A stretch of 31,420 bases of DNA from an uncultured Amaricoccus sp. (lineage in GTDB: Bacteria; Pseudomonadota; Alphaproteobacteria; Rhodobacterales; Rhodobacteraceae): the NCBI RefSeq assembly GCF_937858865.1, contig NZ_CALLYO010000534.1, positions 1-31,420 of the forward strand. Direction: 5' to 3'. The notes beneath the pieces were generated by a model, which saw nothing but the letters and a program-made list of their open reading frames with translations, had not been told where the DNA came from and did no database searches. The position numbers were made by a program, and so were the translations under genes. Within the stretch, counting starts at the first letter, position 1. Each line of letters opens with the position of its first letter. Shown here in pieces: positions 462 to 12,458 of the stretch.

Positions 462-1643
462 ATGAGCAGGCCCATGCCATACGACCTCCGCCCGGCGCAA
501 CCGCGCACCCTCCTCCTCGCCAACGCCCGCATCGTCCTCGAGACGGAAACGATGACCGGCAGCCTCCTGGTCCGCGACGGCCGGATCGCCGCCATCGACA
601 GCGGCCCCGCCGTGCCCGCCGGCGCCGAGGACTGCGAGGGCGACTTCCTCGCCCCCGGCCTCGTCGAGCTCCACACCGACAACCTCGAGCGCCACCTCGA
701 GCCCCGCCCCGGCGTCCGCTGGCCGGAGGCGGCCGCCATCCTCGCCCACGACGCCGAGCTCGCCGGCACCGGCATCACCACCGTCTTCGACGCGCTGCGC
801 ATCGGCTCGCTCGTCGCCGGCGGCAAGGCCGGCTTCCGCCGCTACGCCCGCCCGCTCGCCAGCGAGATCCTCCGCCTGCACGCCTCCGGCACGCTGCGCA
901 TCCGCCACCGGCTGCACCTGCGCGCCGAGATCTGCTCCGAGACCCTCGCCGAGGAGATCGCCGAATTCTCCCCCGCCGACCGCGTCGGCATCGTCAGCCT
1001 GATGGACCACACCCCCGGCCAGCGCCAGTTCACCGACATCTCGCGCCTGCGCGCCTACGCCACCGGCCACCGCGGCATGACCGAGGCCGAGTTCCAGGCC
1101 CATGTCGCCAGCCTCCGCGCGCTCAGCGCCCGCAACGGCGCCCGCCACGAGGCCGCCGCCGTCGCCGGCGCCCGCCGCCTCGGCGCCACCCTCGCCAGCC
1201 ACGACGACGCGACCGAGGCCCAGGTCGCCGCCTCCGCCGCCCACGGCGCCCGCATCGCCGAATTCCCCACCACCTTCGAGGCGGCCGCCGCCTGCCGCGC
1301 CCGCGGCATCGCCGTGATGATGGGCGCGCCCAACCTCATCCGCGGCGGCTCGCACGCCGGCAACGTCTCCGCCGCCGCCCTCGCCGAGGCCGGCCTCCTC
1401 GACATCCTCTCCTCCGACTACGCCCCGGCCAGCCTCCTCGCCGGCGCCGTCCGCCTCGGCACGCTCACGGGCGACATGGCCGCCGGCATCGCCCGCGTCA
1501 CCGCCGCCCCCGCCCGCGCCGCCGGCCTCCCCGACCGCGGCCGCATCGCGCCCGGCCTCCGCGCCGACCTCCTCCGCTTCCGCCTCGCCCATGGCCATCC
1601 GGTGCCGCGCGGCGTCTGGGTCGGCGGCGCCCGCGTCGCCTGA
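462..1643 (+). CDS. phnM: Alpha-D-ribose 1-methylphosphonate 5-triphosphate diphosphatase (PhnM)
   Basis: This amidohydrolase-superfamily enzyme of the C-P lyase pathway removes pyrophosphate from ribose 1-methylphosphonate 5-triphosphate in the cytoplasm. The product has about 393 residues, normal for the family. It shows LANARIVLETETMTGSLLVRDGRIAA in two adjoining parts at the N-terminus, the family signature ELHTDNLERHLEPRPGVRW near residue 70 (metal ligands), the SLMDHTPGQRQF block, LASHDDAT, FPTTFEAA, and SSDYAP near the C-terminus (catalytic aspartate region). Start choice is uncertain: ATG 462, ATG 474 and an upstream TTG at 447 are all in frame, and none has a strong ribosome site; 462 is chosen as the longer ATG. 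Only the DUF1045 gene represents the rest of the phn pathway here, so the remaining C-P lyase genes probably lie to the left of the window. Confidence 0.92.
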   Translation: MSRPMPYDLRPAQPRTLLLANARIVLETETMTGSLLVRDGRIAAIDSGPAVPAGAEDCEGDFLAPGLVELHTDNLERHLEPRPGVRWPEAAAILAHDAELAGTGITTVFDALRIGSLVAGGKAGFRRYARPLASEILRLHASGTLRIRHRLHLRAEICSETLAEEIAEFSPADRVGIVSLMDHTPGQRQFTDISRLRAYATGHRGMTEAEFQAHVASLRALSARNGARHEAAAVAGARRLGATLASHDDATEAQVAASAAHGARIAEFPTTFEAAAACRARGIAVMMGAPNLIRGGSHAGNVSAAALAEAGLLDILSSDYAPASLLAGAVRLGTLTGDMAAGIARVTAAPARAAGLPDRGRIAPGLRADLLRFRLAHGHPVPRGVWVGGARVA

Positions 1644-9933: not shown

Positions 9934-10832
9934 CCACGACCACCGTCGCCCTCCACGGCGTCACCAAGCGCTACGGCCCGATCGCCGCCGTGCGCGAGCT
10001 CGACCTCGCGCTCCACGCCGGCGAGGTCATCGCGCTCGTCGGCCACAACGGCGCCGGCAAGACCACGCAGATCAAGATGATGCTCGGCCTCGCCCGCCCG
10101 ACCGAGGGCCGCGTCGAGCTCCTCGGCGGCGATCCGGCCGTGCACGGCCTCGCGCTGCGCCGCGAGGTCGGCTACCTGCCCGAGAGCGTCTCCTTCCACC
10201 TCGCCCTCACCGGGCGCGAGACCCTCGGCTTCTACGCCCGCCTCAAGGGCGTGCCCCTCTCCGAGCTCGACCAGGCCTTCGCCGCCGTCGGCCTCACCGG
10301 CGCCGAGGGCCGCGCCATCGGCACCTACTCCAAGGGCATGCGCCAGCGCCTCGGCCTCGCCCAGGCGCTGCTCGGCCGCCCGCGCGTCCTCATCCTCGAC
10401 GAGCCGACCAGCGGCCTCGACCCGGCGCTCCGCCGCGAATTCTACGCCATCGTCGCCGCCCGCGCCGCCGAGGGGGCGACCGTCCTCCTCGCCTCCCACG
10501 CCCTGACCGAGCTCGAGGGCCGCGCCGACCGCGTCGTCATCGTGAACCGCGGCGCCAAGATCGCCGACGGCACGCTGGCCGACCTGCGCGCCATCGCCCG
10601 GCTTCCCGTCCAGATCCGCATCCGGCCCGCCGCCGGCTTCGCCGGCCCGATGTCGAGCTCCGGCTGGCAGCGCCTCCCCGACGGCAGCCTCGAGGCCGAG
10701 GTGGAGCCCGCCGGCAAGCTCCCGCTCCTCGCGCAGCTCCTCGCCGACCCCGGCGCCGTCACCGACCTCACCGTCACCGAGCCCACGCTCGACGACCTCT
10801 ACGCCCACTTCCTCCAGCGGGAGGCCGCCTGA
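9930..10832 (+). CDS. nosF: NosF, ABC transporter ATPase for NosZ copper/sulfur centre assembly
   Basis: This cytoplasmic ATPase powers the NosDFY complex that supplies the sulfur species or otherwise supports CuZ assembly. The 300-residue product shows Walker A GHNGAGKTT near residue 38, the Q-loop region YLPESVSFH, the ABC signature YSKGMRQRLGLAQALL, Walker B VLILDEPTSGLDP, and the H-loop in LLASHALTELE. The C-terminal 75 residues form the usual short accessory region. ATG 9930 overlaps the nosD stop; the open frame extends upstream but only in a non-coding phase of nosD. The stop overlaps the nosY start (TGATG). Confidence 0.95.
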   Translation: MTTTTVALHGVTKRYGPIAAVRELDLALHAGEVIALVGHNGAGKTTQIKMMLGLARPTEGRVELLGGDPAVHGLALRREVGYLPESVSFHLALTGRETLGFYARLKGVPLSELDQAFAAVGLTGAEGRAIGTYSKGMRQRLGLAQALLGRPRVLILDEPTSGLDPALRREFYAIVAARAAEGATVLLASHALTELEGRADRVVIVNRGAKIADGTLADLRAIARLPVQIRIRPAAGFAGPMSSSGWQRLPDGSLEAEVEPAGKLPLLAQLLADPGAVTDLTVTEPTLDDLYAHFLQREAA

Positions 10833-11701
10833 TGTCCAGCCTCGCCGACACCGCCATCGTCCCCGCCCCGCGCAGGCCGACCATGCCCACCATCCTCATC
10901 CTCGCGGCCAAGGAGATCCGCGAGGGCTTCCGCAACCGCTGGGTCGTCGCCACCACGCTGCTCCTCGCCGCCCTCGCCCTCACCCTCGCGCTGCTCGGCA
11001 GCGCGCCCACCGGCACCGTCGGCGCCAGCCGCCTCGACGTGGTGACGGTCAGCCTCGCCAGCCTGACCATCTTCCTCGTCCCGCTCATCGCGCTCCTCCT
11101 CTCGCACGACGCCATCGCCGGCGAGGCCGAGCGCGGCACCCTCCTCCTCCTCCTCGCCTATCCGGTCGGCCGCACTGCCGTCATCCTCGGCAAGTTCCTC
11201 GGCCAGCTCGCCATCCTCGCCTTCGCCACCGTCCTCGGCTACGGCGCCGCGGCGCTCGCCGTCGGCTGGAACCTCGGCCTCGCCGCCTGGGGCGCCTTCG
11301 CCGCCATGGTCGGCGCCTCGATCCTGCTCGGCGGCGTCTTCCTCGCCCTCGGCCTGCTCGCCAGCACGCTCGTCCGCCAGCGCTCCACCGCCGGCGGCAT
11401 CGCCATCGGCCTCTGGCTCCTCTTCGTCATCCTCTACGACATGGCCTTCCTCGGCCTCCTCGTCGCCACCGGCGGTCACAGCCTGCCGCCCGCCCTCGTC
11501 GACACCCTCCTCGCCCTCAACCCCACCGACGCCTACCGCCTGCTCACCCTCGGCATGGCCGGCACCGGCGGCCTCACCGGCATCGGCGCCCTCGCCGGGC
11601 ACACCGCCCTCACGCCCCCCATCCTCGTCGCCGTCCTCCTCGCCTGGACCGCCGCCCCCCTCGCGCTCGCCGCGCTCGTCTTCTCCCGGAGGGAGCTCTG
11701 A
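10832..11701 (+). CDS. nosY: NosY, ABC transporter permease for NosZ maturation
   Basis: This is the membrane subunit partnering NosF. The 289-residue product has about six hydrophobic segments: near NRWVVATTLLLAALALTLAL, VSLASLTIFLVPLIALLLSHD, LAILAFATVLGYGAAALAV, GASILLGGVFLALGLLAS, AIGLWLLFVILYDMAFLGLL, and the last ending LAALVFSRREL. Family members usually begin close to the ILAAKEIREGFRNRW motif, so the first 17 residues may be an extension and ATG 10883 is an alternative, but ATG 10832 overlaps the nosF stop as elsewhere in the operon. Its last 17 codons are found again, with almost only synonymous changes, just upstream of nosL. Confidence 0.94.
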   Translation: MSSLADTAIVPAPRRPTMPTILILAAKEIREGFRNRWVVATTLLLAALALTLALLGSAPTGTVGASRLDVVTVSLASLTIFLVPLIALLLSHDAIAGEAERGTLLLLLAYPVGRTAVILGKFLGQLAILAFATVLGYGAAALAVGWNLGLAAWGAFAAMVGASILLGGVFLALGLLASTLVRQRSTAGGIAIGLWLLFVILYDMAFLGLLVATGGHSLPPALVDTLLALNPTDAYRLLTLGMAGTGGLTGIGALAGHTALTPPILVAVLLAWTAAPLALAALVFSRREL

Positions 11702-11703
11702 TG
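11647..11703 (+). repeat. nosY-tail direct repeat, copy 1 (the true nosY end)
   Basis: These 57 bases cover the last 17 codons of nosY plus its TGATG stop-start junction. They match 11877-11933 at 50 of 57 positions with no gap. Six of the seven differences are third-position, synonymous changes; the other turns the final Leu into Pro. Confidence 0.85.
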
Positions 11704-11931
11704 CCCGAGCACCCGCACCCGCACCCGCACCCGTCGCCCTCTCCCTATCGGGCAGGTTCCCCCCGCCCCATGCTTGGGGCGGGGGGGAAGGGGGGGGGGG
11801 GTTGGCGCGCGCAACGGCGCGCAGGGCCCCGCGCGCTCACGCGCGGGAGAACGACTCCGGAGCGCAAAGGCGCTCCGACCGCCGCGCCGCTCGCCCTCGC
11901 CGCTCTCGTCTTCTCCCGGAGAGAACCCTGA
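11701..11931 (+). CDS. 76-codon coupled ORF ending in a copy of the NosY tail (product doubtful)
   Basis: An open frame starts in the nosY stop (TGATG) and ends in the same arrangement with nosL. Its last 15 codons translate to PLALAALVFSRREP, the NosY C-terminus. The middle is His/Pro repeats (from four GCACCC units), Gly and Arg, with no family resemblance; bases 11757-11870 are dominated by hairpins and G-runs. It may be translated merely to keep ribosomes moving from nosY to nosL. I do not assign a function. It is recorded because it is exactly in frame to preserve translational coupling. Confidence 0.3.
   Translation: MPEHPHPHPHPSPSPYRAGSPRPMLGAGGKGGGGWRAQRRAGPRALTRGRTTPERKGAPTAAPLALAALVFSRREP
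11705..11876. other. Extra segment between nosY and nosL with hairpins, GCACCC repeats and a G12 run
   Basis: The insert holds four GCACCC units (11709-11732), a 14-bp near-perfect stem at 11757-11770/11775-11789 (TTCCCCCCGCCCCA with one bulged G on the other arm), a run of 12 G at 11790-11801, G/C-rich alternating sequence, and a perfect 8-bp stem CGGAGCGC-AAAG-GCGCTCCG at 11858-11877. It has no resemblance to a gene. Such stems could slow transcription into nosLX. Confidence 0.7.
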
Positions 11932-11933
11932 TG
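11877..11933 (+). repeat. nosY-tail direct repeat, copy 2 (upstream of nosL)
   Basis: This is the partner of 11647-11703, same length, 50 of 57 bases identical. It provides the GGAGAGAA ribosome site and TGATG junction used by nosL. Confidence 0.85.
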
Positions 11934-12458
11934 CGCCCGTTCCCCGCCCTCGCCCTCTGCGCCGGCCTCGCCCTCCTCGCCGCCTGCGACGACGAGGCCG
12001 AGAAGCCCGCCCCCCACACCCTCACCGACGCCGCCATCGGCCACTACTGCGGCATGATGCTGACCGAGCACGAGGGCCCGAAGGGCCAGATCCTCCTCAC
12101 CGGCCAGGACGAGCCGGTCTGGTTCTCCTCCGCCCGCGACACCATCGCCTTCACCCTCCTCCCCGAGGAACCGAAGGACATCGCCGCCATCTACGTCTCC
12201 GACATGGGCGCCGCCGCCACCTGGGCCGACCCCGGCGCCGACAACTGGACCGACGCCCGCGCCGCCTCCTTCGTCATCGAGAGCGACGCCGAGGGCGGCA
12301 TGGGCGGCAGCGAGGCCGTCCCCTTCGCCGACAAGGCCAGGGCCGAGGCCTTCGTCGCCGAGCATGGCGGCCGGGTCGTCGCCTTCGACGCCATCCCGTC
12401 GGCCTACATCCTCGGCGACTCCGCCGCCCCCCCCGAGGAGGACCACGATGCCCACTGA
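11931..12458 (+). CDS. nosL: NosL, copper chaperone lipoprotein
   Basis: NosL is an outer-membrane or periplasmic-facing lipoprotein that binds Cu(I) and delivers it toward apo-NosZ. The 175-residue precursor has a lipoprotein signal (MRPFPALALCAGLALLAAC) with lipobox LAAC, so Cys19 is the likely lipidated residue. The metal-binding block HYCGMMLTEHEGPKGQI is typical of NosL, followed by FSSARDTIAF, AIYVSDMG, NWTDARAA, and the MGGSEAVPFADKARAEAF block. ATG 11931 overlaps the stop of the preceding coupled frame. The gene ends 11 bases inside nosX. Confidence 0.94.
   Translation: MRPFPALALCAGLALLAACDDEAEKPAPHTLTDAAIGHYCGMMLTEHEGPKGQILLTGQDEPVWFSSARDTIAFTLLPEEPKDIAAIYVSDMGAAATWADPGADNWTDARAASFVIESDAEGGMGGSEAVPFADKARAEAFVAEHGGRVVAFDAIPSAYILGDSAAPPEEDHDAH

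Follow-up and report, generated by a model that had tools for sequence, protein, structure and literature searches.

A hairpin-rich repeat and a duplicated nosY end at the nosY-nosL junction of an uncultured Amaricoccus sp.

The REP, BIME and REPIN sequences are short, dispersed, hairpin-forming and apparently non-coding, as outlined in PMC3116915 (see also PMC2817692), and a repeat with these same features is described here from Amaricoccus. The Amaricoccus repeat differs from them in its unit length of about 135-145 bases, in its several different hairpins and in its number, which amounts to 25 model matches in the richest genome with the best 150 candidates scored. A RAYT-type transposase (PF01797, Y1_Tnp) was found in neither of the two draft genomes searched, G000 and G010, while 5 of 14 control genomes were positive.

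The enterobacterial repeats RU-1, RU-2 and RU-3 resemble the Amaricoccus repeat in being 100-170 bases long, in forming stem-loops and in their capacity to carry open frames and to connect the ends of genes, and they lie mostly between genes; according to PMC2759123, they are also accompanied by TA duplications at the target. No TA duplication was recognised at the Amaricoccus repeat, in a flank comparison blind to repeats of 2-8 bases, and the 57-base duplication reported below is unique to one copy among 17.

In homology-facilitated illegitimate recombination, the illegitimate joins are formed at short segments. As described in PMC6382021, this process operates at low frequency in transformable bacteria, with segments of 3 to 10 bp, and its combination of one homologous and one illegitimate side would give the geometry of the locus presented here. 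Compared with the described process, its operation at this locus is an inference, and the microhomology is weak.

The nosY-nosL junction and its duplicated end

The DNA analysed, termed the window, is a stretch of 31,420 nucleotides from the draft genome G000, and all positions refer to it. The window carries a nos cluster, in which nosZ, nosD and nosL were assigned by family models, nosY by an ABC-2 permease model together with its neighbours, and nosF, nosR and nosX by position and similarity, the best NCBIfam match of nosX (ApbE) lying under the cut-off. nosY, the ABC permease gene of the cluster, is complete (10832..11701, + strand; PF12679, E 3.1e-47), and nosL follows at 11931..12458 on the same strand (PF05573, E 1.6e-49).

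The last 17 codons of nosY, its stop, the TGATG junction and one further base form tail copy 1 (11647..11704, +), which recurs as a diverged second nosY tail, tail copy 2 (11877..11934, +), whose TGATG opens nosL. Sequence comparison finds the two copies, both with TGATG, identical at 51 of 58 positions, ungapped and 230 nt apart from start to start; the 50 of 57 given in a preliminary description of this DNA is the same match minus its last base. The copies differ at offsets 9, 12, 18, 27, 45, 48 and 50, and our recount agrees with that description in finding six synonymous differences, the seventh being a Leu to Pro change in the last codon. The local score of the duplication (39.5) exceeds the maximum of 19.0 reached in 200 dinucleotide shuffles, and in a self-BLAST of the window the pair is the strongest direct repeat with copies at most 1500 bases apart (74.3 bits, the next at 56.3). 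Another diverged direct repeat lies near the left end of the window (1096-1185 versus 1216-1314, 74% identical).

Among 80 nosY loci fetched, the three nearest are from Amaricoccus genomes, A. macauensis DSM 101730 (L009, genome G005) and the metagenome-assembled genomes bin99 (L010, G010) and bin551 (L011, G003), whose NosY proteins are 86-87% identical to that of the window. All three have a single nosY tail with nosL immediately behind and no insert. In G007 and G008, where nosY and nosL are more distant, nosL starts at the nosY stop, again with neither insert nor repeated tail, and all five congeners with nosY-nosL thus carry one tail and no insert; the other five of the ten congeneric genomes sampled besides G000 gave no nosY-nosL match or only short ones. 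In a comparison of junctions from relatives, as proposed in the preliminary description, the insert and the second tail are seen in the window alone, five congeners have neither, and no insert-bearing relative was found among the nosY-nosL loci compared. Plasmid records matching 11300-12458 numbered 104, all at 60-80% identity. One fetched locus (L060), titled Bacillus subtilis strain SK6B4, has a nosY 60% identical to the alphaproteobacterial nosY of the window; a mislabelled record or a mixed assembly could account for this.

A NosL match follows nosY in 79 of the 80 loci, and the nosL start could be assigned in 76. Relative to the nosY stop, the nosL start falls in the range from -4 to +7 in 75 of these 76 scored relatives (-4 in 56 of them, -1 in 13) and at 73 in the remaining one, a distribution that marks the junction as constrained. 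None of the 79 other nosY-nosL junctions has a repeated nosY tail when the tail is compared with the 400 bases behind it (best score 16.0, against 40.5 in the window). Since nosY and nosL overlap, most insertions at the junction would damage the end of the former or the start of the latter, and one that duplicates the junction would be among the few to spare both, an argument about survival and not a demonstrated mechanism.

A dispersed hairpin-rich repeat in Amaricoccus

Amaricoccus harbours a dispersed, hairpin-rich repeat family, and the insert in the window is one copy of it. Behind tail copy 1 lies a spacer of 30 bases with four CACCCG hexamers (11705..11734, +), which has no significant similarity to the nosL start. 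The repeat copy itself, delimited by similarity searches and a model, occupies about 11735..11877 (+); its core begins at 11743, the model match covers 11743-11882, and the right edge is uncertain by about 6 bases. Tail copy 2 abuts the repeat directly, with base 11877 common to both. The hairpin-rich character given to the insert in the preliminary description is borne out by four perfect stems between the tail copies (11759-11786, 11807-11822, 11829-11846 and 11858-11877). Taken whole, the region 11690-11945 forms a fold only modestly more stable than those of its shuffled versions (z -1.56), 11 of 200 of which do equally well.

A 151-base query taken from the insert found 23 places in G010, whereas in G000 it found the window itself and the contigs C641 and C527, both at contig ends; a further reverse match in G000 comprises just one hairpin of the window copy. 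A repeat model built from 16 copies, including those of the window and C641, was then scored against the best 150 of thousands of candidates per genome. It matched 25 times in G010, twice in G000 (both of them copies used to build the model), weakly three times in G001 and once in G003, and in none of the seven other congeners at 1e-3. Outside the genus, a sample of the family was searched under strict filters and with the best 21 candidates scored in every genome listed; at 1e-6 one of 149 genomes matched, which was G000 itself, G010 not being among the genomes listed. A narrow literature search found no published description of the family.

The core has conserved hairpins with loops reading GCAAMGGC. 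In 5 of 16 copies, one pair of the last stem is altered at both of its positions, which amounts to 1 of 14 pairs in two named hairpins or 1 of 30 pairs in another tally. Structural conservation of the hairpins is suggestive only, as most pairs never vary. The region 11400-12200 contains no known RNA family (two Rfam matches, E 0.18 and 0.21, fall far below the gathering score), and neither an intrinsic terminator nor a sigma-70 promoter was found in 11600-12000. The internal gaps that distinguish the repeat copies do not come in multiples of three. A crude ORF picker, whose scan was too noisy for a count of intergenic copies, called a mechanical ORF across the repeat at 8 of 18 loci, and some of these ORFs are plainly translations of the repeat.

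Directly upstream of the core, three G010 loci (L127, L131, L132) carry long pyrimidine microsatellites (CTTCTTCC or CCCTTCT units), and the CACCCG hexamers of the window copy lie on the same side. In three further G010 loci (L124, L136, L140) the flanks, read by eye, contain words like GCGATCGCCCGAAGGC upstream and GCCTTCAAGCGATTGCC downstream, which suggest that the unit may be longer in some G010 copies and bounded by an outer inverted repeat; the window copy showed no such outer pair. In two assemblies, contig ends fall within the repeat or a short way behind it (L120, L121, L125, L137, L139), several of them at its G-run hairpin.

Origin of the duplicated junction

The reading that we consider probable is that repeat-bearing DNA inserted at the nosY-nosL junction in the lineage of the window and duplicated the junction in doing so. 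A one-sided recombination would have brought in a piece bearing the repeat, whose nosY end paired with the resident one on one side, while the other side may have been joined at a microhomology of a few bases, ACCGCC, at the edge of the repeat. Copy 1 would then keep nosY intact, and copy 2 would keep the stretch just before nosL, where the TGATG start and probably the ribosome-binding site of this gene lie. Such a duplication would be tolerated because, in an overlapping pair like nosY and nosL, few other insertions would leave both genes undamaged. The seven differences between the tails would stem partly from the two nosY ends that were joined and partly from drift in copy 2, which has ceased to be part of a nosY gene.

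Regarding the proposed join, copy 2 starts with ACCGCC behind CTCCG, and the C641 repeat, the one further copy in G000 whose right end can be read, is likewise followed by ACCGCC, its edge reading CTCCGACCGCC. ACCGCC occurs 86 times on the given strand of the 31-kb window, and most G010 copies have a different run of bases at this edge; because the motif is common and most G010 edges differ, the microhomology is weak evidence.

The differences between the tails were polarised with a parsimony ancestor from three congeners. Copy 1 accounts for two of the changes, each of them synonymous, and copy 2 for the other five, namely four synonymous ones and the Leu to Pro change. Under neutral drift, at least four synonymous changes out of five on copy 2 have a probability of 0.034-0.075 across nine mutation settings, which speaks somewhat against plain drift; the figure for at least six out of seven (0.004-0.015) pools changes on the selected copy. 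Codons of the nos genes end in G or C in 98% of cases, and AGA is absent among the 134 arginine codons of six nos genes. All three A/T-ending codons and the sole amino-acid change lie on copy 2, which thus has 3 A/T-ending codons in 17 versus 49 in 2158 in the six nos genes (Fisher P 0.007), which gives it a partly drifted look. On the other hand, such codons occur more often in bin551 and A. macauensis (0.087 and 0.096 of nosY; 4 of 17 in the bin551 tail), and two states of copy 2 are known in congeners: Pro is the last NosY residue in bin99, and GAA stands at its codon in bin551. As the GAA and CCC codons of copy 2 each occur in a congener, they were possibly inherited rather than new. The preliminary description had argued that a simple recent duplication would not be expected to show almost only synonymous change. 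While the pattern itself, six of seven, holds, it carries less weight than it appears to, given the drift probabilities for copy 2 and its rare A/T-ending codons, and the step from it to allelic replacement is not taken here. As origins of the differences, allelic recombination and duplication followed by drift are both possible, and mostly synonymous differences between two short copies should not be taken as proof of allelic replacement.

Such a replacement is a possible though clearly less probable account of the locus: homologous replacement would have brought in nosRZDFY, with the repeat behind it, from a related strain and left the resident nosY end as copy 2 before the resident nosL. 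The two tails differ by a dS of 0.54 (6 of 15.7 sites; very uncertain) and a low dN of 0.029, and their dS is as large as that between nosY genes of different species, which from the window is 0.26 to bin99, 0.48 to bin551 and 0.65 to A. macauensis. This correspondence favours a replacement, as do the Pro and GAA that copy 2 shares with the nosY ends of bin99 and bin551, respectively. However, gene-by-gene distances to relatives (nosR not computed) reveal no clear break at the nosY/nosL boundary. The dS to bin99 is even across it (nosZ 0.28, nosD 0.26, nosF 0.24, nosY 0.26, nosL 0.25, nosX 0.35), although a donor from a sister lineage would leave no jump. Moreover, copy 2 and nosL would supposedly share one origin, yet A/T-ending codons make up 3 of 17 in the former and 3 of 175 in the latter (Fisher P 0.0099). 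Of the replacement scar proposed in the preliminary description there remains a tail dS in the between-species range, set against the lack of a clear boundary jump and the drift-like state of copy 2.

It is unlikely that the junction is a chimera of the library or the assembly, in which two co-occurring strains were joined at the hairpin. G000 is a fragmented draft of 651 contigs, and further repeat copies are found where contigs break off in both G000 and G010. Hairpin DNA favours template switching, which would suit an artefact of this kind. Yet the join shares just 6-7 bases, and assemblers need longer shared words than that. The estimated contamination of G000 is 0.76%, no second nosY or nosL that could have served as donor was found in it (best ten candidates scored for each gene), and the wider nos cluster is without a clear jump in distance.

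A further account, that the repeat is a transposable element making long target-site duplications of which the window is one case, is very improbable. It would account for tail copy 2 starting right at the end of the hairpin core, but a comparison of up to 300 bases upstream and downstream of each of 17 copies, a test blind to repeats of 2-8 bases, found a flanking duplication in the window copy alone, whose score was attained by 0 of 200 shuffles. The two copies ranking next are each matched by 7 of 200 shuffles, and the 16 other copies have no duplication clearly above shuffles; three of the 17 have short flanks (one with 57 bases upstream, one with about 55 downstream and one with about 160 upstream). 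With one of 17 copies and none of 79 other junctions carrying a duplication, the duplication belongs to the event in the window. The homology also stops short of the left edge of the repeat. A longer target-site duplication that would reach the nosL start was considered and rejected, as its near-match of 11 of 12 bases is attained by 164 of 1000 shuffles and by 182 of 2000 segments taken from the nos cluster.

The ORF list contains a 76-codon frame (11701..11931, +), which, as the preliminary description stated, is coupled at both ends, running from the TGATG of copy 1 to that of copy 2. That this open frame with its two TGATG junctions is translated into a selected peptide, as was also proposed, is scarcely credible, since GC by codon position is flat over its first 59 codons (0.78/0.76/0.80), unlike in the nos genes, 1522 of 2000 shuffles of the insert leave it open, the internal gaps of the repeat copies ignore the triplet, no NCBIfam or Pfam family matches it, and it is absent from all five congeners with nosY-nosL. 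On these grounds, the frame looks like an accidental by-product, and it may help ribosomes to reach nosL.

Possible roles of the repeat

Copies of the repeat also lie next to cbb genes. In G010, one copy, read by hand, closely follows cbbS where contig C43 ends (L125), and a copy identical in sequence opens contig C78 (L137), before cbbX; the sequence shared by these contig ends implies that they probably represent one place. In G000, a copy precedes cbbX at the start of C641 (L120). The presence of the repeat before cbbX in both genomes indicates that one insertion may predate their split.

In the puf operon of Rhodobacter capsulatus, intercistronic hairpins set the segmental stability of the message (a reference cited in PMC6238624). 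By analogy, the repeat might be an operon-junction element, a hairpin barrier that sets the lifetime of the upstream message and comes to lie in overlapping gene pairs solely by way of insertions with a duplicated stop/start junction; we regard this idea as doubtful.

Overall, the locus looks like a real evolutionary scar built from ordinary kinds of parts, and not like a new kind of system. It shows a dispersed repeat settling in an overlapping gene pair with neither gene broken, by way of a duplicated junction, and it adds a family of hairpin repeats in Amaricoccus. If the repeat controls message stability at nosRZDFY/nosLX or cbbLS/cbbX, it would touch N2O reduction and carbon fixation.
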